Shown here piece by piece: positions 157 to 41,612 of a stretch of 64,000 nt of DNA. The notes beneath the pieces are model-generated. The model saw nothing but the letters and a program-made list of their open reading frames with translations. It ran no database searches and was not told the DNA's origin. This stretch comes from Pythium myriotylum. Lineage: Eukaryota > Oomycota > Peronosporomycetes > Pythiales > Pythiaceae. The translations under genes were made by a program, and so were the position numbers. The stretch covers positions 682,001 to 746,000 of the forward strand of contig JALJCQ010000013.1 of NCBI GenBank assembly GCA_023091665.1, read 5' to 3'. Position 1 is the stretch's first letter; each line of letters begins with the position of its first letter.

Positions 157-1227
157 CTAAGCCCTCAAGGCGCGGTAGGGCTTCGGGGCCGGAGCTGAGC
201 CAGGCGCTGGAGCTGGAGCTGGAGCTGGAGCTGGAGCAGGAGCTGGAGCTGGAGCTGGAGCTGGAGCTGGAGCTGGAGCTGGAGCTGGAGCTGGAGCTGG
301 AGCTGGAGCTGGAGCTGGAGCTGGAGCTGGAGCTGGAGCTGGAGCTGGAGCTGGAGCTGGAGCAGGGGCTGGCCCGCCCGGTGACGAGTTCGTGACGGTC
401 GTGGATCCCGGGTTCATTTGGTTGTACACGCTCACTGATGGTGGCGACACAGCGTTGTTTACATTCACGTTCGGCGGCGACACAGCGTTGTTGACATTCA
501 CGTTCGGCGGCGACATAGCGTTTTTGGCATTTACGTTCGGAGGCGACACAGTGTTTTTGACGTTCACATTCGGAGGCGACACAGAGTTCTTGACATTCAC
601 ATTCGGAGGTGACACGTTGTTGTTCACGTTCACGTTCGGAGGTGACACGTTGTTCTTGACATTCACATTTGGAGGTGACACGGCGTTGTTGACGTTCACA
701 TTTGGTGGTGACATGTTGTTGTTGACGTTGACGTTTGGTGTCGTCATGGCGTTGTTGACGTTGACGTTTGGTGTCGTCATGGCGTTGTTGACGTTGACGT
801 TTGGTGATGACATGGCGTTGTTGACGTTGACCGACGGAGAGTTGAGTGGGTTGTTGAAGTTGAACGACGGCGGCGACACAATGTTCCCGACATTGATGGA
901 TGTGGGCGACATGTTGTTGCCCACGTTGACCGAGGGCGGCGACACGTTGTTCCCGACGTTGATGGACGGTGGAGAGATGCTGTTGCCGACATTGATGTGT
1001 GGCACGTTCATGTTGGCCTGTGGCAGCCGCACGGCAGGGATCGGTGGGGCACCTCCGAAAAGGCTACTAAGCGGAGACGACCCTCCCTTGAACGGAGACG
1101 TCTTGCCTCCGCTGAACGGAGACGACCTGCCTCCGCCACCGCGATTACCCCAAGCCTCGGCCATTTGAGGCTGCGTCGAGAGGATAGCGATTGCTGCGAC
1201 CGCGAGGATGAGCGAGGGCTTGACCAT
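157..1227 (-). CDS. secreted 11-residue-repeat protein (gene X, copy 1)
   Basis: Predicted secreted protein of 356 residues with no known enzymatic domain. The start was placed at MVKPSL, which begins a signal peptide (basic N-terminus, hydrophobic core, cleavage near AEA) and lies 28 nt downstream of a good initiator; the open frame itself continues further upstream without support. After a Gly-rich stretch come about twenty 11-residue units of the type NNxVSPPNVNV, then a long (Pro-Ala)n tract, then the ending KPYRALRA. There are almost no cysteines. It is a paralogue of the genes at 11004-11912 and 24671-25611, sharing signal peptide, order of segments and 5' flank, but differs by the very long PA tract, which comes from a hexanucleotide repeat. 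Function unknown; a wall, matrix or surface protein is an inference from the architecture. Confidence 0.85.
   Translation of the reverse strand: MVKPSLILAVAAIAILSTQPQMAEAWGNRGGGGRSSPFSGGKTSPFKGGSSPLSSLFGGAPPIPAVRLPQANMNVPHINVGNSISPPSINVGNNVSPPSVNVGNNMSPTSINVGNIVSPPSFNFNNPLNSPSVNVNNAMSSPNVNVNNAMTTPNVNVNNAMTTPNVNVNNNMSPPNVNVNNAVSPPNVNVKNNVSPPNVNVNNNVSPPNVNVKNSVSPPNVNVKNTVSPPNVNAKNAMSPPNVNVNNAVSPPNVNVNNAVSPPSVSVYNQMNPGSTTVTNSSPGGPAPAPAPAPAPAPAPAPAPAPAPAPAPAPAPAPAPAPAPAPAPAPAPAPAPAPAPAPGSAPAPKPYRALRA
207..366 (+). repeat. (CTGGAG)n coding microsatellite
   Basis: About 26 copies of CTGGAG with one CAGGAG variant. Read on the minus strand it codes for (Pro-Ala)n in the C-terminal part of the gene at 157-1227. 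The paralogues at 11004-11912 and 24671-25611 have only a few PA units at this place, so the tract is an expansion specific to this copy. It keeps the frame because the unit is 6 nt. Confidence 0.95.
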
Positions 1228-1254
1228 TCTTGGTAGCGACTGGAGCTTGTGTGT

Positions 1255-1273
1255 GGAAATTTGGGAATGAGGC
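1255..1273 (-). promoter_or_regulatory. oomycete-type initiator for gene X copy 1
   Basis: On the minus strand the site reads GCCTCATTCCCAAATTTCC, close to the oomycete core promoter consensus (Inr TCAYTYY followed by CAWTTT). It ends 28 nt before the ATG at 1227. The same site is present at the same distance in the two paralogues. Confidence 0.7.
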
Positions 1274-4371: not shown

Positions 4372-4773
4372 ATGGTCAGCATGGCAGTAATACTTGCCGC
4401 GGCGTCGCTAGCCATGAATTCTTATCAGATTGCTGCTCAATACTCATTCTTTGGATTCCCGTCATCGATGTTCAGCCAATCTCTCGTCGACGTCAACGTT
4501 GACAAAGCTGGCACCAACCCAGGCGGCTCCAAGGTCAACGTTCGAGCGCCGTTTGTAAATGTCGGTGTCCAATCGCAAGGATCAAACTCACGTCACGCGA
4601 CCAGGCAGTCGGGACCCAACAGCAACAAACCCTTCGACGTTGGTGTTCAAGCACCGTTCGCGAACGTCCGCGTTAACAAAGAAGGATCAAATCCAAGCCA
4701 AAATGCTATACCGGCGATGGGGAACACTTATGACCAAATGAACGCACCAGCGAGACGTGCATTCCGCGGGTAG
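4372..4773 (+). CDS. small secreted APFVNVGVQSQG-repeat protein
   Basis: Predicted secreted protein of 133 residues. The N-terminus is a signal peptide (MVSMAVILAAASLAMNS); a second ATG three codons on (4381) is an alternative start. The mature part carries three degenerate units of the type VNVRAPFVNVGVQSQGSN, in which valines alternate with polar residues. It ends ARRAFRG, a one-residue variant of the RxLR ending of its neighbours. No cysteine. The closest relative in the window is the gene at 6013-6870, which has the same unit and the same SQSLVDVNV / GQPLVNVNV entry into the repeats. Function unknown. Confidence 0.75.
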   Translation: MVSMAVILAAASLAMNSYQIAAQYSFFGFPSSMFSQSLVDVNVDKAGTNPGGSKVNVRAPFVNVGVQSQGSNSRHATRQSGPNSNKPFDVGVQAPFANVRVNKEGSNPSQNAIPAMGNTYDQMNAPARRAFRG

Positions 4774-5667: not shown

Positions 5668-6072
5668 TCATGGACCATACATAAAGGCAACTCGATCGCA
5701 CGGAACTCTCGCTGAATCACTGCACAGAACAGTATCACTTGCTTGATTAGTCCGCAGATCCATTGAGAAGAAAAGAATTCCATCTGCGAGAGCGGCAATC
5801 ATGTTGCCGATCGACGCTTCTTCCGGTAGATATGACCAGATCAAAGGCTTCTTTATGGATCCCCTGTCATCCACTGGTAGGATCTTCACCCAGTCGCCAA
5901 CTTGTACTGCTTTTTCGTGCACCACGAAGTTCCGTTGGTCTCTATAATCCACTTCAGAATATTCTCGCCAGGTAGCTGAGTCCGACGTAAAACGAACAAG
6001 AGCACGACAACTATGGCCAAGATCGCGGTCGTTTGTGCATTCGCCATGCTCATTAGCCAGGTTACTGCCCAA
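5668..6072 (-). CDS. uncertain antisense open frame
   Basis: An open frame of 134 codons overlaps the 5' end of the secreted gene at 6013. Its second half (VGDWVKILP ... PLIWSYLPEE ... ALADGILFFSMDL) has an ordinary, globular-looking composition, unlike the low-complexity neighbours, so a decayed or partial gene is possible. I recognise no family. It has no clear start context and it covers the presumed promoter of the gene at 6013, so it may equally be spurious. Confidence 0.25.
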   Translation of the reverse strand: MGSNLANEHGECTNDRDLGHSCRALVRFTSDSATWREYSEVDYRDQRNFVVHEKAVQVGDWVKILPVDDRGSIKKPLIWSYLPEEASIGNMIAALADGILFFSMDLRTNQASDTVLCSDSARVPCDRVAFMYGP

Positions 6073-6870
6073 GACATCTTCACGGGACTTCTCTCAGGAT
6101 TATTTGGCCAACCTCTCGTGAACGTCAACGTTAAGGACAATACGGCTGGCAACAACCCGAGCGGTTCTGACGTCAACGTTCGAGCACCGTTTGTTAACGT
6201 CGGTGTGCAATCACAAGGCTCACACTCATCGGGATCCCATGGCAACAAAAATGTCAAAGTTGGTGTCCAAGCACCGTTTGTAAACGTTGACGTTCAATCA
6301 CAGGAAGCAAATCCGTCGGGGGCTGCTGCCAAGAACAATGACGTGAATGTTGGTGTCAAAGCGCCCTTTGTGGATGTCGGTGTTCAGTCGCAAGGGTCAA
6401 ACGAGCCAGGGTCCCGTGGGAACAGCAACGTCAACGTTGGCGTGAAAGCTCCATTCGTGGATGTCGGCGTCCAGTCGCAAGGATCTCACCCGAGCAACAA
6501 AAACCAACTGAGCGCGCCATCAGCCAACTTCCAGAACCAAAACGGTGCGCCGCCAGCGAATATGGACGGCAATGTCAGCCCTCCATTAGTCAATGTGAAT
6601 AACTACATTAGTTCTGATTCAGACAACATCGATAACACTGACCCACAGTCTGTCAGAAGCACCATCCACGTTGACTCAGGGATCAGCATGGACAGCTTAC
6701 CTGGCCCAGGAACCGTCAAGTCATTTCCGATTCAGGACACGAGCATCACCACGACGCCCACCTCGTCAGGTTCAAGTTCAACAAGTGGTGAACTTCTCCA
6801 TGAGATGACAGCGCCATTCCCGAGGACGTCGGTGCCTACGAAACGTACTCTCCGTGGACGATGGAATTGA
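6013..6870 (+). CDS. secreted hybrid-repeat protein
   Basis: Predicted secreted protein of 285 residues starting MAKIAVVCAFAMLISQVTAQ, a typical signal peptide. Residues about 35-160 hold five units of the type VNVGVKAPFVDVGVQSQGS. Around residues 185-200 it switches to NVSPPLVNVNN, one copy of the 11-residue unit of the large family in this window, followed by a Ser/Thr-rich stretch and the ending KRTLRGRWN. It therefore joins the two repeat classes in one protein. No cysteines, no known catalytic motif. It lies downstream of its shorter relative at 4372-4773 in the same orientation, consistent with a tandem duplication. Confidence 0.8.
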   Translation: MAKIAVVCAFAMLISQVTAQDIFTGLLSGLFGQPLVNVNVKDNTAGNNPSGSDVNVRAPFVNVGVQSQGSHSSGSHGNKNVKVGVQAPFVNVDVQSQEANPSGAAAKNNDVNVGVKAPFVDVGVQSQGSNEPGSRGNSNVNVGVKAPFVDVGVQSQGSHPSNKNQLSAPSANFQNQNGAPPANMDGNVSPPLVNVNNYISSDSDNIDNTDPQSVRSTIHVDSGISMDSLPGPGTVKSFPIQDTSITTTPTSSGSSSTSGELLHEMTAPFPRTSVPTKRTLRGRWN

Positions 6871-7262
6871 AGGGGATCGTGAACATTATGCAAATTCCTC
6901 AAGCTGGGGAGCTGTGCAGCTCCCGGCGTGTGCCGATGTCCTTTCGAGAAGATATCGTGTGTCACACGCGTTATGTCCTGTTTCGGTGGATGTTTGTTTT
7001 TGAATGGATTCATTGTGAGACACGATTCCCATGAGCGCCTTCAGTTTGGTGGCTGGACGTTGCAATCGGTTTGCGAGTCATAGGTAGCGCGATCAGCCAC
7101 CAAACGGAGAGAAGCCGTCAGGACTGGTTCATCTTGTCCAAACTCTCTTTCCGTACCGGATACCCCAAAGCATTTCTTTCTGACGAGAATAGGTGCCGGT
7201 GGCTCATGAGTCAGCGTTAGATCGGTGAAGGCTACGCCCGCAGTAAGCCCATTTAGCGTGGC
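6871..7262. other. intergenic, no gene seen
   Basis: Separates the hybrid-repeat gene from the fragment at 7263. No motif or repeat recognised. Confidence 0.5.
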
Positions 7263-7480
7263 ATGAACAACCTGCTCAGCCCCCCGTCGGCCAACGTCAA
7301 CGACACCATGCCGCCTCCAAATGTGAACGTCATCAACCAACTCAACATTTCATCAGTCGACATCAACAACGCCATGCCGCCTCCAAATCTGAACGTCAAT
7401 AACCAACTCGACCCTCCATCACCAACGTCAACAACGCCATGTCGCCTCCGAACGTGAACTTCAACAACATCGCCACGCCA
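7263..7480 (+). pseudogene. fragment of an 11-residue-repeat gene (probable gene Y remnant)
   Basis: Codes for diverged repeat units (LLSPPSANVND, PPPNVNVINQLN, NAMPPPNLNVNNQLDPPS), then after a frameshift near 7420 SPPNVNFNNIATPS. There is no signal peptide and no RxLR ending. The alternation of NNQL and NNAM units is that of gene Y (8815-9837, 26778-27734). It is cut off on the right by a LINE fragment that continues in frame from about 7484. Confidence 0.75.
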
Positions 7481-8814: not shown

Positions 8815-9837
8815 CTAGGCGCGAAGAGCGCGTCTCGCTGGGGCCGGCGTGCTCGGGCACGGGGTCGGCGCCGTCGGAGACCCACTGCTCGTCGATGTGC
8901 CTGGCGCCGGAGCAGCTGGAGTAGCCGGAGCAGGCCCATTGCTGGTCGTCGTCTCCGGAGTCGTGGACGTGGTAGTGGAGCTGGTGCCTGGCGTCGTGGA
9001 CGTCGTGGTCGAGCTCGTGCCGGGCGTCGTGGACGTCGTTGTGGAGCTGGTACCAGGGGTGGTGGATGTGGTGGTGGTGCTCGAGCCTGGCGTGACGGAG
9101 GTGACAGTGCCCGGACTAGGCGAGTCGCCGGTGTTGGTGACCGTGGTGGTGGATGGCGAGACCTTGTTGTCGACGTTGATGGAGGACGGCGACATGTTAT
9201 TGTTGACATTGACTGAGGGTGGTGATACGTTGTTGCTGACACTGACCGATGGCGGCGACATGTTGTTGTTGACGTTCACGTTCGGAGGCGAGACGTTGTT
9301 GCTCACACTGACCGACGGCGGCGACATGTTGTTGTTGACGTTCACGTTCGGAGGCGAGACGTTGTTGCTCACACTGACCGACGGCGGAGACACGTTGTTG
9401 TTGACGTTGACGTTTGGTGGTGACACGTTATTGTTCACGTTCACATTCGGAGGAGACATAGCGTTGTTGACGTTCACGTTCGGAGGCGACATGGCGTTGT
9501 TGACGTTGACCGATGGAGGGTTGAGTTGGTTGTTGACGTTCACGTTTGGAGGCGACATGGCGTTGTTGACGTTGACCGATGGAGGGTTGAGCTGGTTGTT
9601 CACACTCACGCCTGGCGGGCTCACGTTAGTGCCGACGTTGATCGATGGCGGCAAACCGTTCGTGTTGACGTTGGTCGGTGGCAAGTTAACGGGAGGGTTG
9701 GCACTCGGCTTGAGTCCTCCCAGCAGACCTCCCTTGGGCGACTTGCCACCACGAGGAGCCCAGGCCACCGCAGTATGTGGCTGTGTGGAGAAGACAGCGA
9801 TCGCTGCAAGGAGGACGACGAGCGAAGTCTTGACCAT
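8815..9837 (-). CDS. secreted 11-residue-repeat protein (gene Y, arm 1)
   Basis: Predicted secreted protein of 340 residues. The start MVKTSLVVLLAAIAVFSTQ begins a signal peptide ending near AVAW and lies about 50 nt downstream of an initiator; a longer open frame upstream of it is not supported. A short Gly/Lys/Pro segment (APRGGKSPKGGLLGGLKP) is followed by about fifteen 11-residue units (NNAMSPPNVNV, NNNVSPPSVSV, NNQLNPPSVNV), then a mucin-like Thr/Ser-rich block made of TTTSTTPGTSS units, an Ala/Pro-rich stretch and the ending ARRALRA. The Thr-rich block is a likely O-glycosylation region. Near-identical to 26778-27734 but longer by exactly 22 residues (two units). It is divergent from gene X at 11004. 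Confidence 0.88.
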   Translation of the reverse strand: MVKTSLVVLLAAIAVFSTQPHTAVAWAPRGGKSPKGGLLGGLKPSANPPVNLPPTNVNTNGLPPSINVGTNVSPPGVSVNNQLNPPSVNVNNAMSPPNVNVNNQLNPPSVNVNNAMSPPNVNVNNAMSPPNVNVNNNVSPPNVNVNNNVSPPSVSVSNNVSPPNVNVNNNMSPPSVSVSNNVSPPNVNVNNNMSPPSVSVSNNVSPPSVNVNNNMSPSSINVDNKVSPSTTTVTNTGDSPSPGTVTSVTPGSSTTTTSTTPGTSSTTTSTTPGTSSTTTSTTPGTSSTTTSTTPETTTSNGPAPATPAAPAPGTSTSSGSPTAPTPCPSTPAPARRALRA

Positions 9838-9888
9838 TGTTTTGTGGGCGTGGTCTTTGGACGCGTTTCTTGGAGGTGTGAGGAGGAA

Positions 9889-10965: not shown

Positions 10966-11003
10966 CCTCCTCCACGCACAAGCCCAAGTCCCAAGCAACA
11001 AGA

Positions 11004-11912
11004 ATGGTCAAGTCCTCGCTCATCCTCGCGGTCGCAGCAATCGCTGTCCTCTCGACGCAGCCTCAGATGGCCGAGGCTTGGGCTCCTCGCGGTGGCGGAG
11101 GCAAGTCGTCTCCGTTCAGTAGCCTGTTCGGAGGTGCCCCACCGAGCCCTGCGGTGAGGCTGCCACCGGCCAACTCGAACGTGCCGCCAATCAATGTCGG
11201 CAACAACATCTCGCCACCGTCCATCAACGTCGGCAACAACGTGTCGCCGCCCTCCGTCAACGTGGGGAACAACGTGTCGCCGCCCTCCGTCAACGTGGGG
11301 AACAACGTATCGCCGCCCTCGGTCAACGTGGGGAACAACGTGTCGCCGCCGTCGTTCAACTTTAACAGCAACTTGAGCCCGCCGTCCGTCAACGTGAACA
11401 ACGCGGTTTCGCCGCCAAACGTGAATGTCAACAACGCGGTTTCACCGCCGAATGTGAACGTCAACAACCAGATGAACCCTCCATCCGTGAACGTCAACAA
11501 CCAACTCAACCCTCCATCGGTCAACGTCAACAACGCCATGTCGCCTCCAAATGTGAACGTCAACAACAACATGTCACCGCCAAACGTGAACGTGAACAAC
11601 AACGTGTCACCACCAAACGTCAACGTAAACAACAACGTGTCTCCACCGTCAGTCAGTGTGAGCAACAACATCTCGCCTCCGAACGTGAACGTCAACAATG
11701 ATGTGTCGCCTCCAAATGTGAACGTCAACAACGCTGTGTCGCCTCCGAATGTGAATGTCAACAACGCTATGTCACCACCGTCAGTGAGCGTGAACAACCA
11801 AATGAACCCGGGGTCCACGACCGTCACGAACACGTCCCCGGGCGGTCCAGCTCCAGCTCCAGCACCTGGCTCAGCTCCGGCCCCGAAGCCCTACCGCGCC
11901 TTGAGGGCTTAG
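11004..11912 (+). CDS. secreted 11-residue-repeat protein (gene X, arm 1)
   Basis: Predicted secreted protein of 302 residues, the intact representative of X in the duplicated unit. The signal peptide MVKSSLILAVAAIAVLSTQ ends near AEA. The mature start AWAPRGGGG, a Ser/Phe/Gly linker (SSPFSSLFGGAPP) and a Pro/Asn stretch lead into units of two subtypes: first NVGNNVSPPSV (about six), then a PSFNFNSNLSPP variant, then NNAVSPPNVNV units. In variants the residues change (V to F or T) but the alternation of a nonpolar or beta-branched residue with a polar one is kept. It ends APAPKPYRALRA. Paralogue of 157-1227; broken copy at 24671-25611. Confidence 0.9.
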   Translation: MVKSSLILAVAAIAVLSTQPQMAEAWAPRGGGGKSSPFSSLFGGAPPSPAVRLPPANSNVPPINVGNNISPPSINVGNNVSPPSVNVGNNVSPPSVNVGNNVSPPSVNVGNNVSPPSFNFNSNLSPPSVNVNNAVSPPNVNVNNAVSPPNVNVNNQMNPPSVNVNNQLNPPSVNVNNAMSPPNVNVNNNMSPPNVNVNNNVSPPNVNVNNNVSPPSVSVSNNISPPNVNVNNDVSPPNVNVNNAVSPPNVNVNNAMSPPSVSVNNQMNPGSTTVTNTSPGGPAPAPAPGSAPAPKPYRALRA

Positions 11913-13818: not shown

Positions 13819-16800
13819 CTACCGCAGCTGTTGGCGGAGTATGTGGCGAGCTTGCCATTCGGTGAAGTCGGAGGCCAGGAACGCTTCGAGCCTGCCGTGG
13901 TGGCTTCTGGGGTGGGTGTGCGGGCCTTGCACACTGGTGTGGGAGTCCATAGCTGCGTTGGCTGCTGAGTCGGCCATTTTGTTGAATGCCCGCAGGTGAT
14001 GGTGCCACTCCGTTATCCGGAGAGCATCTGCTAGCCGACGTGCCGGGGCGTAAAGTTTGCGAAGAGCTGTGTTCCGTGGTGGGCGGTAACGTTGGAGTTG
14101 GCTAAGGATCAGTGCACTGTCCCCAACAACTTCCACTTGCCAGTGGTTGGCTGCTGCTGCTCGGAGACCCGCAAGTAGGCCGAGGTATTCTGCTTGATTG
14201 TTTGTCATGTCGGGGCGCGCGTAGGACATGCTTGCACTCCACACTATCTCCGCTGCCGTGGCATCTTCGTCAGCCGCGATGATAACGGCGCCGGACCCTC
14301 CTGGTCCCGGATTCCCTCGAGAACCACCATCGAAGAAGAGAACATGTCGTCGGCCGCCTACTGGGCTCAACGATGGACCCATTCCTTGTCTGCCAAGTGC
14401 CTGAATGAGATGGAACCTGGGGTCCCGAACACGCGGGACCTGTGGCAATCTGTCGCACAGGCCACGCAGGGAGGCGCGCAATACCGCTAGATGGTAGACT
14501 CCGGCTTGATCGGGGGACCATGCGATTTCTTCGTCCACAATGTTGTGTCGCCATCTCCAAATACACCCCAGAGTGGTGAGCACATGCTGCTGCCACGCCG
14601 CTGCTGCTGTATCGTGAACCAGCGTCATGGCGTCGACGTCATCCGGGGATATCTGGGACAAGGCTGCCCTGTACCAGAGCTGGGCTGGGAAATGGTGCAG
14701 CTGGAGGCCGAAGACGCACTGACGAAGGTCTCCTACTGCCTTGGTGGTCGTGCCGTCAAGATCCCATATCTTGAAGAGCTGGTTCCAAAGCACTTGTGCG
14801 TTCGGACATGCCCAGAATATGTGTGCAATTGTTCCGCCGGCTCCGCCTTCGCCACAGTGCGGGCATCCTCTGCGCTGATTCAATCTGTCCCACCCAGAGA
14901 TTCTACCCCCTTTTATCTTCCGCATGAGAAGACGCTGATGGGACGAGGCCCCTGGGATTCTGTCGAGTTCCCTCCATGATAACTTCTGCAGGGCTGCGTG
15001 AATGACCGGGTCTGTGCTTTGCGTGAGTGTCTCGCGTGCCTGAGCTTCTTGAGCTGCACGCGCTGTCGTCTGATTTTCCAGGAGTTTACGGGCCGCTCTT
15101 GGGCTGGTGGCAAGCGGTTTCCTCCAGACCATGCGCTCTATACCTATCCACGGGTGGCTTAACACCACCGCGCCAGGTGAGTCAATGGTTTTCCTGATGC
15201 GTGCGGCTGCATCCTTGGGGGAGGAGACCTCCCCGAGTGTGAACTGCGAGTTTGGTGAGGGTTCCCATAGCAGGTCAATGCGCCCGGCACGTCTTCGGAG
15301 GCGCCAAACGTCTGTTGTTGCCGGAACGACTCGGAGCATGTCGTCGTCATCATGCAGCCCGAGAACAGCCGGATAGTTGGCGACGATGACATCACATAGT
15401 AACCGGAACTGGTCAGATTCCACTCTGGAGAGCGGGAAATTGCACCTTTTACTGCCGAAAGAGATCGTGCCGTTCTTATCAGGCCTGATATTGAGTGCGT
15501 CCCCGATGGTGTCCCGTGTTCTCGCGACTGCCTTGAAGGTTATCGAGGTTGCGCAGCTTCCGTCCTGGAGCAAAAGGATTTCGTCATCAGCCACTCTCGC
15601 TGCAAGCAACGCGTGAATATCGAAGTGGCCGTGTGTGTCATCTTGGAGAGAGCGGAGCTGCCGAAGTTCGAGCAGATGCTCGGAGTAGTCACATACGTAC
15701 CAGTCATCCTCCCAACGCCGGACTTTACAGGCTGTGCTCCACAAGGCCGGGATTAATCTGGTCGTGGCGTCAGTTTCTTCCTCTGTGCGCGGTTGTGAGC
15801 CCAGGGCATCGATCTGCCGTAGGCCAGTCTTTGCCAGTGAGGATTCATGTCGCGGCTGGGGCTGTGGTGTCCGAGATGGCCTCGGAACCCATCTCCAATT
15901 GCTGTTCCCTTGAAGGAGAATCTGACCTATTTCTGTTCGAATGTCGCCCGTGCTCTGTCCCCACCTTTTCGACGTCGTGAAGCTGAGCTTCTTGAACTCC
16001 ACTGCGAGGTCGGGTACCGCCAGCCCTCCTCGTGCCATGGGTTGGGCTGCCGATGCGCGACTCATCCATGCCTTGCGTCCTGTCATGACTTCGACGAAGC
16101 TACCGTGCCAGACGTAGTGATGTACGAGTTTCTGGAGCTGGGCTATCCGGGACGCCGTCGGCCATTCATGCCTGCCAACGAAGAGGATCTTCGGGACGAT
16201 GATCGCTCGGGCAATCTGAACTCGCTGGAGCAGATCGGTGGTCTTGAGTTGGGCAAAGTGCAGCCTCGCTCTTAGTTGGAGCGCAATTTCCCACACCTTG
16301 GACGCTGCTGGATATATCATGAGCTGAGCTCCCAGCAACCTGGCTGTCTCTCCTTTCCTGATCCTTGGGAATCCGATGTCTGTCACGTCCGTCGGCCATC
16401 CCTCCGGCCCTAGCGGTGCTGCAATGCATTTGCTAACATTGATGTGGAGTCCGGAGACTGCCGCAAACCTATCGAGTGCCTCCTTGAGCGCCCGTGTGTG
16501 TTTGTGGTGACGAAGATACACCGTCGTATCGTCCGCGAAGCCTACTGCCGTGACGGTTTGCCCTGACGGCAGACGAATTCCTTGGATACTTTTTTCACGA
16601 GCGAGGAGATCGTAGAGCGTGTCGACTGCCAGAATAAAAAGAACAGGCGCGAGGGGACATCCTTGCCGGATCCCGTTGAGAATGTCATGGTCTTCCGAGG
16701 CACTGTCTTCGGCGAGATAGGTAGCTGTTGTTGCCATGTGGAGCTGGTCAACTGCCGTGATGACCTTCGTTGGAAACCCCAGTCGTCTGAGGGCGAGAAT

Positions 16801-20191: not shown

Positions 20192-20227
20192 TAGCTGGTG
20201 TCCTGCTACCGGGTTCAGGGTCCCATC

Positions 20228-29448: not shown

Positions 29449-31230
29449 ATGGTCAAGATCGCCCACGTCGCCGCCATTGCAAGCGCCGCCGTTCTTCTAG
29501 GCGGGCCAACAGCCAGCGCCGAGCAAATGACGCTCAGCCACATCATGCCTCTGCTCCAGGGGCTCTCCGGGGGCTACGGTGGCAAGAGCTCGCCAATGTC
29601 GCTCGGCTTTCCTTCGATTTCGAGCCCGATCAGCCCTGGGAATGTCAGCCCGCCAACGACTGCGACAAACCAGGTCACGCCACCATCAGTCAATGTCAAC
29701 ACAGCCAACACCCCCCCGTCGGTTAACGTCAACACGGTGAACACACCGCCTTCGGTCAGTGTCAACAACGCGAATTCGCCACCGTCCGTCAGTGTCAACA
29801 ATGTTAACACGCCGCCGTCAGTGAGTGTGAACAACGCAGTTTCCCCGCCATCGGTTAACGTGAACAACGCCGCGTCTCCACCGTCTGTGAGCGTGAACAA
29901 CCAGGTCAATCCGCCATCGGTCAATGTGAACAACAAAGTCAGCCCTCCGTCAGTCAGTGTCAACAACAATGCCGGTCCTCCGTCCGTTAGCGTCAACAAC
30001 AACGTGTCGCCACCCTCCGTCAACGTGAATAACAACGTGTCGCCACCCTCCGTCAACGTGAATAACAACGTGTCGCCGCCTTCCGTCAACGTGAATAACA
30101 ACATGAGCCCGCCGTCGGTCAGTGTCAACAACAAGGTCGGCTCGCCGTCTGTCAGTGTCACGAACTCGGTTGGATCTCCATCCGTTAGCGTGACAAACAC
30201 TGCAAACCCGCCATCATTCACATTCAACAACATCGCGACCTCGCCCAGCGTGAATGTGGACAACAAGGTTTCTCCCCCGAGCACCACAGTGACCAACACG
30301 GTCGGTTCTCCTTCTGTGAGCGTCACAAATAACGTGCGTCCCCCTACTACGACCGTCACGAACACAGTATCCACTCCGTCTACGTCGGTGACCAACACGG
30401 TAGCGAATCCTCCAGAGCCCATCACACCGAAACCAGCAACCTCCTCCTCGTCGACGTCTACAACTACTGTGCCTGGGCCGGCGCCGGCGCCTGTAAACGA
30501 CTGTGGACCGGGTATGGTCTCTGGACGCTACCTTGTGGCCCAAGGGAAGCCAGGATGCGTGCCCGCGAGCGCCAGTTCCGGTGGAGCTTCCGGTGGTTCG
30601 TCAGGCGGTGCGTCTGGAGGCGCATCCGGTGGTGCATCAGGTGGTAGCTCCAGCGCTGTTCCTCCTCCGGCTCCTGCCCCAGCACCAGCGCCAGCCGCGA
30701 AATCCAAGACCGGAGGATCCAAGCCAGCGCCTGCTCCTGCAGAGGACCCTGCGCCGACCCCTGCAGAGGCCTCTGGTGGTGCATCCGGCGGTGCATCAGG
30801 TGGTAGCTCCAGCGCTGTTCCTCCTCCGGCTCCTGCCCCAGCACCAGCGCCAGCCGCGAAATCCAAGACCGGAGGATCCAAGCCAGCGCCTGCTCCTTCA
30901 GCTGATCCTGCAGAGGCCTCTCCTTCTCCGGACCCGGACTCAAAGTCTACGTCATCTTCTAATGTACCTGAACCGGTGCCTGCTCCAGAGCCCGCACCAG
31001 CTTCCAAGACCGGCAAGTCTGGAGCGTCCAAACCTGCGTTGGCAAAGGACCCAGCACCGGCGGACAAGCCAACGGAAGCTGTCTCCGCCCCCGAACCGGA
31101 CACCAAACCGGCATTGACGGTCTCTCCACCATCGTCGCCGTCGTCCGTGCCTGCGCCGGTTCCTGCCCCTGTCCCTGCGCCGGCTAGTGCCCCCAAGGGA
31201 GGGAAGAAGTCCCGCTCGCTTCGAGCGTAA
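29449..31230 (+). CDS. large secreted 11-residue-repeat protein with Cys pair and SGGA/PA domain
   Basis: 593 residues, the longest of the family. Signal peptide MVKIAHVAAIASAAVLLGG, mature start near AEQM, then GGYGGKSSPMSLGFP, a sequence block shared with the genes at 36247, 38934 and 40548. About twenty-four 11-residue units follow (residues about 60-320), the last ones of the variants PPSFTFNN, PSTTVTNT. Residues about 345-370 hold the only two cysteines (NDCGPGM ... GKPGCVPA). The C-terminal 220 residues are Gly/Ser/Ala/Pro-rich, including a nearly exact internal duplication of the block GGASGGSSSAVPPPAPAPAP ... SKTGGSKPAPAP. Ending GGKKSRSLRA. Function unknown. Confidence 0.88.
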   Translation: MVKIAHVAAIASAAVLLGGPTASAEQMTLSHIMPLLQGLSGGYGGKSSPMSLGFPSISSPISPGNVSPPTTATNQVTPPSVNVNTANTPPSVNVNTVNTPPSVSVNNANSPPSVSVNNVNTPPSVSVNNAVSPPSVNVNNAASPPSVSVNNQVNPPSVNVNNKVSPPSVSVNNNAGPPSVSVNNNVSPPSVNVNNNVSPPSVNVNNNVSPPSVNVNNNMSPPSVSVNNKVGSPSVSVTNSVGSPSVSVTNTANPPSFTFNNIATSPSVNVDNKVSPPSTTVTNTVGSPSVSVTNNVRPPTTTVTNTVSTPSTSVTNTVANPPEPITPKPATSSSSTSTTTVPGPAPAPVNDCGPGMVSGRYLVAQGKPGCVPASASSGGASGGSSGGASGGASGGASGGSSSAVPPPAPAPAPAPAAKSKTGGSKPAPAPAEDPAPTPAEASGGASGGASGGSSSAVPPPAPAPAPAPAAKSKTGGSKPAPAPSADPAEASPSPDPDSKSTSSSNVPEPVPAPEPAPASKTGKSGASKPALAKDPAPADKPTEAVSAPEPDTKPALTVSPPSSPSSVPAPVPAPVPAPASAPKGGKKSRSLRA

Positions 31231-31628: not shown

Positions 31629-32276
31629 ATGGTCAAGATCTCAGGTTCTTCTCTCAGCTTTGCAGCCATCGGAGTCCTTTTCGTCAACACGGTACAAGCC
31701 GAGACTATGGCGGGGTTTTCCGGCGGAGGAGGGGGGCTAGGTAGGATGGGAGGAGGAGGAATGGCCTCGTTGGGTGAGGGAGGCATGGGTGGTCTCGGTG
31801 GCCACGGTAACCATGTTGGTGGTGGGATGGGTGGACAACAGTCCGGAGGATTCCCAGGGTTGGGGAGTGGTGGAGGAATGCAGCGAATGGGAAGTGGAGG
31901 TGCCTCCGCACTTGGAGGAGGTGGAGGGGGAATTCCTGGAATGGGAGGCGTTGGCGGAGGCCTACCAGGCGTGGGAGGCGGATTTCCGTCCATGGGAGCA
32001 GGCGGAGGTGGTCTCTCTGGTTTGGGCGGTGGGATGAGTCGCTCTTCTCCCAGTGGAGGATTTGGTTTTCCTGCTTTAGGCGGTGGGGGAGCGAGCTCAC
32101 CCAGTCAGGTGGCGGGTGACAGCGACCCACTTGTCGGCAGTGTCTCGCCTAACTCCAACGCTGTCAGCAGCGGTGCCAAAGCACCGTTTCAAGGATCCAC
32201 GAAGTCGATCGGTTTTAAAGATGCGGATGCTTCCGGTGTTCAGCCTCAGCGTCAACTTCGTCGTGACTCGGAGTAG
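31629..32276 (+). CDS. secreted glycine-rich protein, RQLR ending
   Basis: 215 residues from MVKISGSSLSFAAIGVLFVN, a signal peptide ending near VQAE; an upstream in-frame ATG is not supported because all family members start MVK or MAK right at the signal peptide. The mature protein begins AETMAGF and is built of Gly/Met-rich GGxG and LGGGGGGIPGMGG units without cysteines. It ends QPQRQLRRDSE. It has no 11-residue units, but the AExM mature start and RxLR ending tie it to them. A structural wall or matrix role is inference. Confidence 0.8.
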   Translation: MVKISGSSLSFAAIGVLFVNTVQAETMAGFSGGGGGLGRMGGGGMASLGEGGMGGLGGHGNHVGGGMGGQQSGGFPGLGSGGGMQRMGSGGASALGGGGGGIPGMGGVGGGLPGVGGGFPSMGAGGGGLSGLGGGMSRSSPSGGFGFPALGGGGASSPSQVAGDSDPLVGSVSPNSNAVSSGAKAPFQGSTKSIGFKDADASGVQPQRQLRRDSE

Positions 32277-32676: not shown

Positions 32677-33216
32677 ATGGTTCAGTCTTTCTCTCTTCGC
32701 TATTTCTTAATCGCTGTGCTTCAAGCACTCATGTCGGCCACAGCCGAACCAATGCTCGATTTCTCCAGTCTCATCGGGGCAGTTCCTTCCGCGGGTAGTA
32801 GTGAACTCGGCATTCCATCTCTCGGAGGAAGCAGCGGACTCACGCAACTTGGTGGTGGCGGTGGGATCCCGTCACTCAGTGGCACCGGAGCTCTTGGTGG
32901 ACTCACCAGTGGAGGTGGATTGAGCAACCTAGCAGGAGGTGGGGGGCTCGGCAAACTCTCTGGCGGGAGTGCACTCAGCGGACTCACCGGTAGCAGCGGG
33001 CTCAGCGGCTTGACTGGAGGAGGACTCGGTGGTCTCAATGGTCTCAGTGGCGGGGGAGGGCTGCGTGGCCTCACAGAAGGCGGTGCCACCGGCCAAGCCG
33101 CTAGTGAGAGGGATGCGTTCGCCAGAGACGCGTCATCAAAGGCGGACGGCGGCGCCGGCTCGCGACATGCAGCGCCGTCAACACGACGAACCAAACGCTG
33201 CCTGCGCTCCGAGTAA
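32677..33216 (+). CDS. secreted Gly/Leu/Ser-repeat protein, RCLR ending
   Basis: 179 residues. Signal peptide MVQSFSLRYFLIAVLQALMS, mature start TAEPMLDF. Residues about 45-135 are Gly-rich units with leucine every few residues (GLSGLTGGG, LGGLTSGGGL, LGKLSGG), a pattern different from the Met-rich 31629 protein. The C-terminal 40 residues are charged (SERDAFARDASSKADGGAGS) and end TRRTKRCLRSE, with a single cysteine inside the RxLR tetrapeptide. Function unknown. Confidence 0.8.
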   Translation: MVQSFSLRYFLIAVLQALMSATAEPMLDFSSLIGAVPSAGSSELGIPSLGGSSGLTQLGGGGGIPSLSGTGALGGLTSGGGLSNLAGGGGLGKLSGGSALSGLTGSSGLSGLTGGGLGGLNGLSGGGGLRGLTEGGATGQAASERDAFARDASSKADGGAGSRHAAPSTRRTKRCLRSE

Positions 33217-33694: not shown

Positions 33695-34297
33695 ATGACC
33701 AAGATCGCCATCGTCTACTACTCCACCTACGGCCACATCGCCACGCTCGCCGAGGCTGTCAAGGAGGGCGTTGAGAAGGTCGAGGGCGCCAAGGCCACGA
33801 TCTACCAGATCCCGGAGACGCTCTCGGAGGAGGTGCTCGGCCTGCTCCACGCCGCGCCCAAGAAGGACCACCCGCTCATCACGCCGGAGATCCTCGCTGA
33901 GGCCGACGGAATCCTCTTCGGCTTCCCGACGCGCTTCGGTTCGTTCCCGGCTCAGGTCAAGGCGTTCTTCGACTCGACGGGCGGCCTCTGGGCCAAGGGC
34001 GGCCTCGTCGGTAAGCCGGCTGGTATCTTCTTCAGCACGGGCACCCTCGGCGGTGGCCAGGAGACCACGGCCTACACGGCGGTGACCTATTTGACCCACC
34101 AGGGCCTCACATTCGTGCCGCTCGGCTACCGCTCGCCGCTCATCTTCAACCTCGACGAGGTGCACGGCGGCTCGCCGTGGGGTGCGGGTACTCTGGCTGG
34201 TGCTGACGGCTCGCGCCAGCCGTCGAAGCTCGAGCTCGATGTCGCCAAGGTTCAGGGTGAGAGCTTCGCCGGTGTCGCCAAGAAGCTTGCGGCTTAG
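33695..34297 (+). CDS. NAD(P)H:quinone oxidoreductase, WrbA type (copy 1)
   Basis: 200-residue flavodoxin-fold enzyme of the WrbA / plant FQR1 / yeast Pst2 family, which reduces quinones to hydroquinones with two electrons from NAD(P)H using FMN and is cytosolic or membrane-associated. Visible: the N-terminal phosphate loop KIAIVYYSTYGHIATLAE, FGFPTRFGSFPAQVKAFFD, TGTLGGGQETT, and the family C-terminus DGSRQPSKLELDVAKVQGES. The start was chosen at MTKIAIVYY, which gives the normal family length and leaves 28 nt to a good initiator. It lies between secreted repeat genes; copies at 35276 and 41932. Confidence 0.93.
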   Translation: MTKIAIVYYSTYGHIATLAEAVKEGVEKVEGAKATIYQIPETLSEEVLGLLHAAPKKDHPLITPEILAEADGILFGFPTRFGSFPAQVKAFFDSTGGLWAKGGLVGKPAGIFFSTGTLGGGQETTAYTAVTYLTHQGLTFVPLGYRSPLIFNLDEVHGGSPWGAGTLAGADGSRQPSKLELDVAKVQGESFAGVAKKLAA

Positions 34298-35275: not shown

Positions 35276-35884
35276 ATGGCCAAGATCGCGATCGTCTACT
35301 ACTCGACCTACAACCACGTCGCCACGCTCGCCGAGGCCATCAAGGCCGGTGCCGACAAGGTCGAGGGCGTCGAGGCCACGATCTACCAGGTCCCAGAGAC
35401 CCTTCCAGAGGACTTGCTCGCGTCCATCCACGCCGCGCCCAAGAAGAACTACCCTCTCATCACGCCCGAGATCCTCGCCGAGTCGGACGGCGTGCTCTTT
35501 GGCTTCCCGACGCGCTTCGGCTCGCTGCCCTCGCAAGTCAAGGCCTTCCTCGATTCGTGCGGCGGCCTTTGGGCCAAGGGCTCGCTCATCGGAAAGCCAG
35601 CGGGCTTCTTCTTTAGCACGGGTGCTCAGGCCGGTGGCCAGGAGACCACGGCGTACTCGTCGCTGCCGTTCATTGCTCACCACGGCATGGTCTATGTCTC
35701 GCTCGGCTACCGCTCGCAGCTGCTCTCCAACATGGAGGAGATCCACGGTGGCAGCGCTTGGGGTGCTGGTACCCTCGCTGGCGGCGATGGATCGCGCCAG
35801 CCATCCAAGCTCGAGCTCGAGGTCGCCAACGTCCAGGGCGAGAGCTTCGCCAAGATCGCCAAGAAGCTCACCCGCGAGGACTAG
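35276..35884 (+). CDS. NAD(P)H:quinone oxidoreductase, WrbA type (copy 2)
   Basis: 202 residues, same family as 33695-34297: KIAIVYYSTYNHVATLAEAI (the usual Gly-His after Tyr is Asn-His here), FGFPTRFGSLPSQVKAFLDS, TGAQAGGQETT, DGSRQPSKLELEVANVQGES. It is the most divergent of the three copies; the extra C-terminal residues are TRED. FMN-binding segments are all present, so it should be active. It is in tandem with copy 1, 979 nt apart. Confidence 0.92.
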   Translation: MAKIAIVYYSTYNHVATLAEAIKAGADKVEGVEATIYQVPETLPEDLLASIHAAPKKNYPLITPEILAESDGVLFGFPTRFGSLPSQVKAFLDSCGGLWAKGSLIGKPAGFFFSTGAQAGGQETTAYSSLPFIAHHGMVYVSLGYRSQLLSNMEEIHGGSAWGAGTLAGGDGSRQPSKLELEVANVQGESFAKIAKKLTRED

Positions 35885-36246: not shown

Positions 36247-37620
36247 CTAGGCGCGGAGTGCACGGTAGGGCTTTGGCGCCGGAGCCGGGCCAGGGGGCGG
36301 TGCAGGAGCTGGTGCTGGAGCAGGTTCCGGTGCGGGCGCCGGGGCTGGTTCAGGTGCAGGAGCTGGCGCGCTCGGGGTCGAGCTTGTCGTAGTGGAGGTT
36401 CCTGGCGTTGTGCTTGTTGTCGTCGTGGACGTGCCTGGCGTCTGGCTCGTGGTGGTAGTCGAGGTTCCGGGAGTATCACTTGTGGTCGTGGTTGTCGTGC
36501 TTGGCCCTGGCACAGTGTTCGTGATGGTTGTTGTTCCGGGCCCCGAGTTTGTGTTCGTTACACGGACCGTGCCCGGGCCAACATCGTTTGTGACTGTGGT
36601 CGAGCCTGGCGTGTTGAGGTTGTTGAAGGTAAACGACGGCGGGTTGTTCGTGTTGGTCACCGTTGTCGTGCCAGGGTTCACTGTGTTCGAGACAGTCGTC
36701 GAGCCAGGGTTCACTTGGTTGTTTACGTTCACAGATGGAGGCGACACGGCGTTGTTGACATTCACACTTGGAGGAGACACGGCATTGTTCACGTTGACCG
36801 ATGGAGGCGAAACAGCATTGTTGACGTTCACGGACGGAGGCGAAACCGCGTTGTTGACGTTTACACTAGGAGGTGAAACCGCGTTGTTCACGTTCACATT
36901 CGGGGGCGAGACTGCGTTGTTTACATTTACGTTGGGAGGTGAGACAGCGTTATTCACGTTTACATTGGGGGGCGAGACGGCGTTGTTCACGTTTACGTTC
37001 GGCGGGCTCACATTGTTGTTCACATTGGTTGAACCAGGGTTCATCTGGTTGTTGACGTTCACATTTGGAGGGCTGACGTTATTGTTCACGTTGGTCGACC
37101 CTGGGTTCATCTGGTTGTTGACGTTCACATTCGGAGGCGAGGCGGCGTTGTTGACGTTGACCGACGGCGGATTCAAGTTGCTGTTGAAATTGAACGACGG
37201 CGGCGACACACTGTTGCCCACGTTCACCGACGGAGGCGAAACACTGTTGCCTACGTTGACTGAAGGTGGTGACAGGTTGCTGTCGACGTTGACAGATGGT
37301 GGCGTCACGGCATTGTTGACATTAGTCGATGGCGGGTTGGCCTTGGACGCGGAGACGATGCCCTGGACGCCGGTCATGACAGTGCCGACAATGTCCGACG
37401 GATTGGCTCCGCCGCCCGGAGAGCCACCACCGAAGGATGGCATGCCGCCGCCGCCGAAAGAAGGCATACCACCACCGAAGGACGGCATGCCGCCCATGCC
37501 CTTCATCATGCCCATCATCGGCATCATACCGAAGGTCATGCGTTCACCATTGACAGTGAACGGCTGAGAAGAAAAGACAGCGACCGCCGCGATCGCGACG
37601 ACAAGAGAGGGCTTAGCCAT
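36247..37620 (-). CDS. secreted 11-residue-repeat protein with Met/Gly-rich head
   Basis: 457 residues. Signal peptide MAKPSLVVAIAAVAVFSSQ; the mature N-terminus GERMTFGMMPMMGMMKGMGG and GMPSFGGG units are shared in style with the genes at 38934 and 40548. About twenty-two 11-residue units follow (NNAVSPPNVNV, NVGNSVSPPSV, plus NNQMNPGSTNV variants), then Thr-rich units (STTTTSQTPGT), a Pro/Ala tail and KPYRALRA. Several neighbouring 33-bp units are nearly identical, suggesting recent array expansion. An initiator lies 26 nt upstream (37646-37664, minus strand GATCACTCGCCAACTTTCG). Divergent from the gene at 38934. Confidence 0.88.
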   Translation of the reverse strand: MAKPSLVVAIAAVAVFSSQPFTVNGERMTFGMMPMMGMMKGMGGMPSFGGGMPSFGGGGMPSFGGGSPGGGANPSDIVGTVMTGVQGIVSASKANPPSTNVNNAVTPPSVNVDSNLSPPSVNVGNSVSPPSVNVGNSVSPPSFNFNSNLNPPSVNVNNAASPPNVNVNNQMNPGSTNVNNNVSPPNVNVNNQMNPGSTNVNNNVSPPNVNVNNAVSPPNVNVNNAVSPPNVNVNNAVSPPNVNVNNAVSPPSVNVNNAVSPPSVNVNNAVSPPSVNVNNAVSPPSVNVNNAVSPPSVNVNNQVNPGSTTVSNTVNPGTTTVTNTNNPPSFTFNNLNTPGSTTVTNDVGPGTVRVTNTNSGPGTTTITNTVPGPSTTTTTTSDTPGTSTTTTSQTPGTSTTTTSTTPGTSTTTSSTPSAPAPAPEPAPAPAPEPAPAPAPAPPPGPAPAPKPYRALRA

Positions 37621-38933: not shown

Positions 38934-39920
38934 ATGGTCAAGCTTGCCACAATCGTCGCCGTCACCTGTCTCCCCGCGCTTCTAAGCGATGTCCACGTCG
39001 CTACGGCCGAGCAGATGACCTTTGGTCTTCTCGGTATGGGCATGACGAAGGGAATTGGTGGTGGAGGTGGCTACGGCGGAGGAAGCTCGCCGCTGTCCAT
39101 GGGGTTCGGAGGAGGCTCGAGCCCGCTCTCGAGCATCATGGGCAGCGTGAGTGCGCCGTCCATCGGTGTCAACAACAACGTCGCATTGCCATCCATTGGC
39201 CTGAACAACAACCTCTCACCGTCCACCATCGGTGTGAACAACGCCCTCTCACCGCCGTCAGTGAACGTTAACAACCAAGCGACAGGACCGTCGGTCAACG
39301 TGAACAACCAGGCGACGGGGCCTTCGATTGGCGTGAACAACAACGTCGCGTCACCTTCCATCAATGTAAACAACAACGCTGCGTCTCCGTCGGTGAACGT
39401 CAACAACCAGCTCAACCCACCGTCGATCAACGTTAACAACAACGCTGGTTCACCGTCCGTGAACGTCAACAACAATGTGAGCCCGCCATCCGTGAACGTT
39501 AACAATAACGTGAGCCCCCCATCGGTCAACGTCAATAACCAAGTTGGTTCGCCGTCGGTCAACGTGAACAACCAACTCTCGCCGGGTTCCACTTCGGTCT
39601 CGAACAACGTAAGCCCACCGTCCTTTACTTTCTCCAACTCCGTTGGCTCTCCGTCCGTGGACGTGACAAACAACGTGAGCCCAGGAACGACCTCGGTTAC
39701 CAACACAAACGTGTCACCGGGCACCACGACGATCACCAACACTGTGCCGGGCTCCAGCACCACCACGACCAATACGACGCCAGGTACGTCGTCCACGTCG
39801 ACGACTACGAACGACCCACCAAGCGCCCCTGCCCCGGCGCCAGTGCCGGACCCAGTCCCAGCGCCTGCCCCGGCCTCGGCGCCGGCGGCGGGGAAGAGCT
39901 ACCGTGCGCTCCGAGGCTGA
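38934..39920 (+). CDS. secreted 11-residue-repeat protein
   Basis: 328 residues. The start MVKLATIVAVTCLPALLSDV was preferred over a long upstream extension because it begins the signal peptide and follows an initiator. Mature start AEQMTFGLLGMGMTKGIGG, then GGGSSPLSMGFGG twice. About eighteen units follow, with more varied sequence than in X and Y (NNQATGPSVNV, NNNAGSPSVNV, NNVSPGTTSVTNT), then SSTTTTNTTPGT and an Ala/Pro tail with the ending KSYRALRG. Confidence 0.87.
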   Translation: MVKLATIVAVTCLPALLSDVHVATAEQMTFGLLGMGMTKGIGGGGGYGGGSSPLSMGFGGGSSPLSSIMGSVSAPSIGVNNNVALPSIGLNNNLSPSTIGVNNALSPPSVNVNNQATGPSVNVNNQATGPSIGVNNNVASPSINVNNNAASPSVNVNNQLNPPSINVNNNAGSPSVNVNNNVSPPSVNVNNNVSPPSVNVNNQVGSPSVNVNNQLSPGSTSVSNNVSPPSFTFSNSVGSPSVDVTNNVSPGTTSVTNTNVSPGTTTITNTVPGSSTTTTNTTPGTSSTSTTTNDPPSAPAPAPVPDPVPAPAPASAPAAGKSYRALRG

Positions 39921-40547
39921 ACCCCAGTTTCCTTGGGACTTGTTCGCCATTGTCCCGTACCCCGTACCCTGTCCCTCGTCAAACCCTTTGGTGACGACCG
40001 TGTAAGTGTGATCGTGTAGTCAGTTGCGAGTGTAGAAGTTGAGTGCTTCCCTATGAACAGTAGTTGCTGCAATGTGTCAGTTTTGGTGGCTCCACATCTC
40101 ACATGTCGCAGAGTGTAGCCATTTGGAAATGGGGCTGGGCAGCGCAATGTCTTTTCCTTTGTCGTTGCCGGATGTCCTGTACGTGCGACGACTACTGGTC
40201 AACGAGAAGACATCCGAATGAGGATCGTAAAAGCAGACGTGCGCTTCATCCACAGGATATGACAGGTGCTGGACAGCTCCTTCGCACTCCTCCCACGGAC
40301 TCATAGTACTTAGAAGTCACCAGAAATCTCGGCGGAAGAACAAAAGAATGTCTCGAATGCGAAGTTGATGCTATCAGACCCACAAACGCAAACCTCATGG
40401 ACGAACTGGATCATTCATCTCCTGCAACCTACGACAATCAGTGAAAGAAATGTGTTCGATTTGGCTGTGGTAGCCCCTGCCAAGTTATCATCTCGTCCAA
40501 CACCTTGCTCATTCGCAAACTTGCCTTATTCGATCAACATCCCGACA
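39921..40547. other. intergenic with promoter of the gene at 40548
   Basis: Initiator GCTCATTCGCAAACTTGCC at 40507-40525, 22 nt before the ATG. Otherwise no motif seen. Confidence 0.6.
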
Positions 40548-41612
40548 ATGGTCAAGCTCCATCTCATTCTCGCTGTTGTCACGTTCGCCGTGCTGAGCAG
40601 TCATGCGAGCGCCAAAGAGCAGACGTTCGGCCACCTCGCCATGATGAAACCGATGATGGGCGGCTTCGGGGGCTCGCCCATGAGCATGGGCTTTCCTGGC
40701 GTCGTCTCGCCTCCGTCAATTGGTGTCAACAATATGATCTCGCCTCCCTCTGTGAACGTCGGTAACAGCATGACGCCTCCATCGCTCAACTTTAACAACG
40801 TTGTCCAGCCGCCGTCGGTCAACTTGAACAACCAGATGAACCCGCCGTCGGTAAACCTGAACAACCAACTCAACCCACCATCAGTCAACCTGAACAACCA
40901 ACTCAACCCGCCGAACGTGAACGTCAACAACCAGCTTAACCCTCCATCCGTGAACTTGAACAACCAGCTCAACCCACCAAATGTGAACGTCAACAACCAA
41001 CTCAACCCTCCTTCAGTCAACTTGAACAACCAACTCAACCCCCCGAATGTGAATGTCAACAACCAACTCAACCCCCCAAACGTGAACGTGAACAACCAGC
41101 TCAACCCTCCATCGGTGAACGTGAACAACCGCGTAACTTCTCCGAACGTGAACGTCAACAACCAGCTCAACCCGCCCTCGGTCAATGTCAACAACCAGAT
41201 GAACCCTCCGTCGGTCAATGTCAACAACCAGATGAACCCTCCGTCGGTGAATGTTAATAACAACATGAACCCTCCGTCCGTCAATGTCAACAACCAAATG
41301 AACCCACCGTCAGTCAACGTAGATAACCGCGTGACCTCGCCGTCGGTCAATGTGGACAACCAAGTGAACCCTCCGTCGCTCAATGTCAACAACAATGTGT
41401 CTCCTCCATCTGTGAACGTTGACAACCAAGTTAACCCGGGATCTACCACGGTCTCCAACACGATGAACCCTGGCTCCACCACAGTCACCAACAACAACGG
41501 CCCACCGAGCAGTGGTCCTGCTCCAGCCCCAGGTCCTGCTCCTGAGCCTGCTCCGGCACCACCTTCTGGTCCTGCACCCGCGCCAAAGCCGTACCGCTCA
41601 CTGCGTGGCTAA
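40548..41612 (+). CDS. secreted 11-residue-repeat protein, YRSLR ending
   Basis: 354 residues. Signal peptide MVKLHLILAVVTFAVLSSH, mature start AKEQTFGHLAMMKPMMGGFGG, SPMSMGFPG, then about twenty-five units dominated by the NNQLNPPSVNL / NNQMNPPSVNV subtype, with three NNRVTSPNVNV units. A short Pro/Ala tail ends KPYRSLRG; this YRSLR also fits the YxSL[RK] signature reported in secreted proteins of Pythium species, where however it sits near the N-terminus. Function unknown. Confidence 0.88.
   Translation: MVKLHLILAVVTFAVLSSHASAKEQTFGHLAMMKPMMGGFGGSPMSMGFPGVVSPPSIGVNNMISPPSVNVGNSMTPPSLNFNNVVQPPSVNLNNQMNPPSVNLNNQLNPPSVNLNNQLNPPNVNVNNQLNPPSVNLNNQLNPPNVNVNNQLNPPSVNLNNQLNPPNVNVNNQLNPPNVNVNNQLNPPSVNVNNRVTSPNVNVNNQLNPPSVNVNNQMNPPSVNVNNQMNPPSVNVNNNMNPPSVNVNNQMNPPSVNVDNRVTSPSVNVDNQVNPPSLNVNNNVSPPSVNVDNQVNPGSTTVSNTMNPGSTTVTNNNGPPSSGPAPAPGPAPEPAPAPPSGPAPAPKPYRSLRG

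Follow-up and report, generated by a model that had tools for sequence, protein, structure and literature searches.

What does it mean for the predicted secreted proteins of a single oomycete locus to end in the tetrapeptide RxLR? The question arises from a 64,000-nucleotide stretch of Pythium myriotylum DNA (NCBI GenBank assembly GCA_023091665.1, contig JALJCQ010000013.1, positions 682,001 to 746,000 of the forward strand; hereafter the window), in which an array of genes for proteins with a signal peptide and a repetitive or Gly-rich body carries this motif at the very C-terminus. Three body types can be told apart: type 1 is built of 11-residue NVNN repeats, type 2 of APFVNVGVQSQG units, and type 3 is Gly-rich. 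The original prediction held that these types share no sequence and that the ending, as a C-terminal signal, joins otherwise unrelated proteins. With moderate confidence, our analysis assigns most or all of these genes to a single lineage-specific, expanded family of secreted, low-complexity repeat proteins, whose C-terminal R-x-[L/F]-R motif would act in processing or sorting.

The 13 predicted tails are all present in the sequence: 13 open reading frames (ORFs) of the window have R-x-[L/F]-R at most ten residues from the stop codon, 12 as RxLR and one as RAFR (Table 1), and the type-1 tails conform to a single form, R-[AS]-L-R-[AG]-stop. They do not represent 13 independent genes, a count we reject in favor of ten distinct tail DNAs (compared over the final eight codons together with the stop codon) plus inverted duplications, such as 8400-12144 versus 24439-28149, and others. 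The tail DNA is identical among 157, 11004, and 24671 (genes being named by their first window position), and likewise between 8815 and 26778. The array reaches upstream of the window to a total of 21 family ORFs over about 112 kb (C13:612000-723612; contig handle and position), with the tail in all 21, amounting to 12 distinct tail DNAs. A region of 264 kb around the array, window included (C13:592001-856000), was scanned for ORFs of at least 80 residues, with signal peptides called by our own heuristic and not by SignalP. R.[LF]R is found in the last 14 residues of 20 out of 70 signal-peptide-like ORFs, all 20 belonging to the family, and is absent from the other 50, among which are an antisense frame and the N-terminal piece of one copy of a family gene. 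Where no signal peptide was called, 6 of 488 ORFs have it, one being the family fragment 24671; since a large share of these ORFs do not represent genes, the background is a rough one. Ten-residue random draws from each mature protein (20,000 each) yielded R.[LF]R with p = 0 to 0.0024 across the 21 array ORFs, a comparison with shuffled protein that places every tail beyond chance (p ≤ 0.0024) and leads us to reject a chance origin.

The position of the motif agrees with the prediction that it is C-terminal and not near the signal peptide, in that R.[LF]R occurs outside the last ten residues in none of the 21 mature proteins. RXLR effectors are expected to carry the motif in the first 40 or so residues behind the signal peptide, and none of the 21 ORFs has an RxLR there. 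A host-entry motif in an odd position, to which the identical four letters might point, is on these grounds extremely improbable; moreover, the bodies are repeats, and the genome contains no match to the Pfam RXLR family (PF16810), although the control genomes likewise contain none. The array proteins are like the Phytophthora RXLR(-dEER) effectors in their signal peptide, in the RxLR letters, and in the placement of the motif in a disordered-looking stretch (here judged by eye), whereas the Phytophthora motif is reported to lie close behind the signal peptide and to undergo cleavage between L and R prior to secretion (PMC11754927). Comparable likenesses link them to the YxSL[RK] candidates of Pythium ultimum, which are secreted and have RxLR-like letters; one array tail, the YRSLRG of 40548-41612, matches YxSL[RK], albeit at the C-terminus, whereas the P. 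ultimum motif is described at positions 61-80, in proteins whose conserved N-terminal region comprises four motifs (PMC2926784). The same study reports P. ultimum to be without classical RXLR effectors (PMC2926784).

That the tail is kept as a peptide is indicated by its codons. Ten distinct type-1 tails, eight from the array together with those at C12:3080 kb and C12:3130 kb, encode the first Arg by CGC or CGT, the Leu by CTC, CTT, CTG, or TTG, and the second Arg by CGA, CGC, CGT, or AGG. This requires at least 1 + 3 + 4, i.e., at least eight, substitutions in the three codons (for R, L, and R, respectively), all synonymous and none changing a residue, against a neutral synonymous share for a single change of about 0.25-0.5, depending on the codon; the count is treeless and uses this simple share, and is thus a guide rather than an exact test. 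The x position of these type-1 tails is Ala or Ser and the last residue Ala or Gly. Comparison by blastn of the flanks of 13 distinct genes (1000 bp upstream, 600 bp downstream) gave a good alignment in two pairs only, one both upstream and downstream and the other downstream only, the remaining matches being two of 30-38 bp at E 0.037. Since the changes in R, L, and R are all synonymous and most flanks are unalignable, the tail has, on this codon and flank evidence, been kept as a peptide across copies whose codons, repeats, and flanking DNA have diverged.

Whether the tail joins unrelated proteins is a separate matter, and here the genes themselves blur the supposed types. The array gene g659 combines 17 eleven-residue units with three APxVxV and ten VGV units, and g664, which is the window's 6013 gene, again has both the 11-residue and the APxVxV/VGV unit kinds, as does its copy g688. 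A type-2 query matches g659/g661 at E 0.0014, and the codons of the type-2 tail PARRAFRG (CCA GCG AGA CGT GCA TTC CGC GGG) are close to those of the g659 tail (CCA GCG AGA CGC GCA CTC CGA GCG). Because the unit kinds co-occur, the type-2 query hits type-1 genes, and the tail codons are alike, we take types 1 and 2 to be kin, forming one gene family. The Gly-rich type 3 may belong to the same family, to which it is weakly tied. Against an N-terminal type-1 profile, the type-2 protein of the 6013 kind scores 10.0 bits (reached by 2/62 control signal peptides, one of the 62 being a family copy's N-terminal fragment, and by 2/250 of its own shuffles) and that of the 4372 kind 2.8 bits (7/62 controls, 26/249 shuffles); the Gly-rich 31629 scores 5.0 bits (2/62 and 13/249) and 32677 1.0 bit (10/62 and 34/238). 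Units of the form [MFIL]P[SAG]x[GS], a motif picked post hoc after inspection, number five in 31629, two in 32677, and three in the type-1 protein 36247 (shuffle p ≤ 0.001). The notion of three body types without shared sequence hence fails for types 1 and 2, whose units mix in g659 and g664, and for the Gly-rich proteins it meets a weak tie to type 1. With types 1 and 2 forming a single family to which type 3 may also belong, the view that the ending joins otherwise unrelated proteins is not supported, and the circumstance named beforehand as contrary to the prediction, one family with endings alike by descent, is largely what we find.

Family members also lie outside the array. A type-1 query gives 50 genome matches at E ≤ 0.1, many within the array. 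Unlinked copies retain the tail: that at C12:3080 kb ends in VRALRG and those at C12:3110, 3130, and 4120 kb in PRSLRG, while copies on C6, C28, C17, and C27 and at C12:3122 kb show RSLRG after one common in-frame stop; no tail was seen in the stretch at C15:3080 kb. We count the dispersed RSLRG copies as one recently duplicated lineage because their 3' flanks are 94.9-100% identical over the 52-440 bp compared. These flanks, the kinship of types 1 and 2, and the common duplicated stretches of the family at 82-99.8% identity would all suit descent without function, in which the endings are alike only as gene copies. However, codons and stop codons vary among the distinct tails while R, L, and R stay the same, and the flanks of most gene pairs do not align; weakened by the codon test, that explanation is unlikely. 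The tails are best described, from their sequences, as largely alike by descent, yet retained as a peptide. A broken type-1 copy at C27:199 kb adjoins a helicase-like frame with a weak UvrD_C_2 match below the cut-off, and a mobile element may be responsible for the spread of the broken copies.

Could the tail nevertheless belong to a wider class of secreted proteins? In the genome, R-[AS]-[LF]-R-[AG] followed by TAA or TAG has 70 matches versus 127 for the reversed pattern, the pattern being loosely coded (some matches read Ser) and the reversed control differing in composition; 16 of the 70 are array family tails and 11 are dispersed family copies, two of the latter not being read. The TGA version has 86 matches versus 77 reversed, of which a single one is a family tail, and the narrower YRxLR[AG] has 16 versus 15, including 7 family tails. 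None of the nine non-family YRxLR[AG] matches ends a secreted ORF, and three of them end in TGG and not in a stop codon. The strict non-family candidates come to 18 by hand count with repeats collapsed; of six read, four seem to be non-coding or part of a retrotransposon, and two are ends of AA17 lytic polysaccharide monooxygenases (LPMOs). A genome-wide class of C-terminal RxLR is thus not supported beyond the family, and in this one genome the lack of excess over reversed patterns, the other circumstance named beforehand as contrary to the prediction, leans against the general class that had been predicted.

The two AA17 ends (C4:1937288 and C4:1927649) close genes with a long Asn/Gly-rich extension. 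The domain at C4:1937 kb begins with HGYI, placing His at the mature start, and matches 6z5y, annotated as Lytic Polysaccharide Monooxygenase and which we take to be an AA17 member, with E 1.4e-20 over residues 1-169 of 170. The C4:1927 kb gene is 47% identical to this domain, which other AA17 genes also match (111 genome matches in all); of the two motif-found genes, a signal peptide was seen for that at C4:1937 kb. The pair end in RALRG and RSLRA, and two neighbors in RSLRSAAN and RRSLRSTAN, with RSLR in the last eight residues; a third neighbor ends in RALMTNGTDAE, without RxLR. All ten AA17 ends read assume intron-free DNA near the stop, and RxLR lies in the last ten residues of four (C4:1937, 1927, 1943, and 1945 kb) and is absent from six (C4:1935, 1924, and 1946 kb; C13:420 kb; C15:566 kb; C30:341 kb), a proportion biased upward because two were found via the motif and two via homology to the tail stretch. 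Among the five genes read of 13 chosen regardless of their tail, none has RxLR, and the tail as a trait of AA17 genes at large is not supported. The cluster is, at the level of sequence, the one recurrence found outside the family, in an unrelated enzyme and not general within AA17, and could stem from one event of descent there. It furnishes the positive evidence for a general sorting signal at the C-terminus of many of the organism's secreted proteins; set against the tail-blind genes, the YRxLR[AG] matches, the missing excess, and the make-up of the six candidates read, such a signal is very unlikely. The tail looks more like a mark of one expanded family, plus one enzyme cluster, than like a common feature of secreted proteins.

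The AA17 proteins resemble the array proteins in being secreted, in having a low-complexity extension, and, in this one cluster, in the RxLR tail, and differ in having a catalytic domain. Their extensions, among the ends read, are Asn/Gly-rich, Ser-rich, or Pro-containing (C4:1924-1948 kb and others). According to one report, the contribution of the disordered C-terminal extension of AA17 LPMOs to pathogenesis had not been established (PMC8615602).

How might the tail work? The proteins consist of a signal peptide, the repeats, in many cases a stalk rich in Thr/Ser or Pro/Ala, and the short basic R-x-[L/F]-R tail, which we picture as a short linear motif that would be recognized either along the secretory route or at the wall. 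No GPI-type (glycosylphosphatidylinositol) tail was seen, in that the last twelve residues of all 21 array ORFs, judged by eye, have no hydrophobic run. The same twelve residues contain 3-5 Lys/Arg and 0-2 Asp/Glu in all 21, and most type-1 bodies are charge-poor (0-9 Lys/Arg and 0-9 Asp/Glu), 29449-31230 being an exception with 21 and 17, respectively. This is what the main rival would expect, namely an electrostatic foot by which the basic tail sticks a near-uncharged stalk to acidic polymers of the wall or surface without specific recognition. A parallel is offered by SpHtp3 of Saprolegnia parasitica, likewise a secreted oomycete protein with a short basic C-terminal motif, YKARK; it differs from the array proteins in being a nuclease, and its C-terminus is reported to mediate uptake into fish cells (PMC6002402). 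However, charge alone would not require what all 12 distinct array tails display, a fixed Leu (Phe once) and an exact spacing of the two Arg residues, and we consider the electrostatic foot possible but somewhat unlikely.

A processing or sorting site read by a protease or a sorting receptor would fit better than simple charge because the Leu and both Arg residues are fixed and the second Arg is always trailed by at least one residue. The endings of the four AA17 genes of the C4 cluster speak for the same reading. The genome has 46 matches to the aspartic protease family PF00026, which do not identify the reader of the motif. On the processing or sorting reading, these proteins would probably end up in the wall or matrix and not enter a host. 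A short C-terminal signal, whether for sorting, processing, or anchoring, thus remains the best reading of the position and codon evidence, as had been proposed, though not as one common to unrelated proteins. Mucin-like or repeat-rich surface proteins exist as a class in oomycetes. The array proteins are like them in having a signal peptide, repeats, and Thr/Ser-rich stretches, and unlike them in that nine repeat or Gly-rich proteins scanned against Pfam had no match above the cut-off and that a conserved tail is not described in the literature found. Our literature searches found no paper on C-terminal RxLR in oomycetes and none with the repeat string PPSVNVN, and the titles and abstract starts of the matches listed for AA17, RXLR, and C-terminal motif combined held nothing on such a tail.

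Several points weigh against one family with a processing or sorting tail. The Gly-rich genes are unproven kin of type 1, their profile scores being within the control range, and a cut after RxL or RxLR would take off only 1-5 residues. In the P. infestans effectors tested, the N-terminal RXLR is reported to be cleaved between L and the second R, which speaks for a processing site, but two RXLR motifs that lie in structured parts farther from the signal peptide stayed uncut (PMC11754927). The authors link cleavage to a disordered setting no more than 30-40 residues away from the signal peptide (PMC11754927), and because cleavage there is tied to position, a C-terminal site may stay uncut. Among the 8000 best candidates scored, the type-1 protein search gave no relative; the searches for type 2, one of them likewise over the 8000 best candidates, matched only three named psyllid and further unnamed proteins with similar units and other endings, so that neither type yielded a useful homolog from another species. 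The APFVxV repeats of these proteins, some of the unnamed ones bacterial-looking, resemble those of type 2 without an RxLR tail, a likeness that is probably convergent.

Table 1. Family genes and other features of the window (lengths in residues).
Position	Strand	Feature	Length	Ending and remarks
157..1227	-	type-1 secreted protein	356	KPYRALRA
4372..4773	+	type-2 (APFVNVGVQSQG) secreted protein	133	PARRAFRG; tail codons near type-1 g659/g690
6013..6870	+	type-2 protein with two type-1-like units (e.g. SPPLVNVNN)	285	KRTLRGRWN
7257..7424 (contig 689257-689424)	+	type-1 repeat relic, open frame	66	
8815..9837	-	type-1 protein, from MVK start	340	PARRALRA
11004..11912	+	type-1 protein	302	KPYRALRA
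13819..19098	-	LINE-type (long interspersed nuclear element) retrotransposon		endonuclease, reverse transcriptase, RNase H in first ORF; further ORFs 19013-23052
24671..25078	-	3' part of type-1 copy		KPYRALRA; signal-peptide part in other frame, 25174-25611
26778..27734	+	type-1 protein, from MVK start	318	PARRALRA; inverted duplicate of 8815-9837
29449..31230	+	type-1 protein	593	KKSRSLRA
31629..32276	+	type-3 Gly-rich secreted protein	215	QRQLRRDSE; sole genome match at E ≤ 0.001
32677..33216	+	type-3 Gly-rich secreted protein	179	TKRCLRSE; sole genome match at E ≤ 0.1
33695..34297		WrbA-like flavodoxin / FMN reductase gene		within array
35276..35884		WrbA-like flavodoxin / FMN reductase gene		within array
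36247..37620	-	type-1 protein, MPSFGGG Gly-rich stretch behind signal peptide	457	KPYRALRA
38934..39920	+	type-1 protein, from MVK start	328	KSYRALRG
40548..41612	+	type-1 protein, from MVK start	354	KPYRSLRG
41932..42534		WrbA-like flavodoxin / FMN reductase gene		just beyond array end
57023..60643	-	WDR35/IFT121 gene		fits flagellate stage

The surroundings of the family genes have features of their own (Table 1). The retrotransposon sits between the two arms of an inverted family-gene duplication. The elicitin matches of the genome, the WDR35/IFT121 gene, and the AA17 genes agree with an oomycete origin, elicitins and AA17 being marks of oomycetes. Elsewhere in the genome, elicitin genes (135 matches) and aspartic protease genes often occur in opposite-strand pairs of equal score (C1, C15, C29), as do genes of the array, which suggests frequent palindromic duplication. 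Outside the window, C13:753136-767994 contains an ORF of 4937 residues that overlaps long, near-identical tandem DNA repeats.

To our knowledge, how the oomycete RXLR is recognized, and what role it had before there were effectors, are open questions in the field. A speculative and very improbable extension of our findings is that C-terminal R-x-L-R is an ancestral oomycete secretory code for wall or matrix proteins and some AA17 LPMOs, with the same kind of reader later exploited by RXLR effectors; if true, C-terminal R-x-L-R would occur in lineages without RXLR effectors. A C-terminal RxLR under selection in apparently non-effector secreted proteins, and found again at the end of LPMO extensions, would provide a directly testable set of substrates. 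If it is a trait of the family only, it would still be a clear example of how a short motif at the C-terminus can outlast large turnover of the repeat body.

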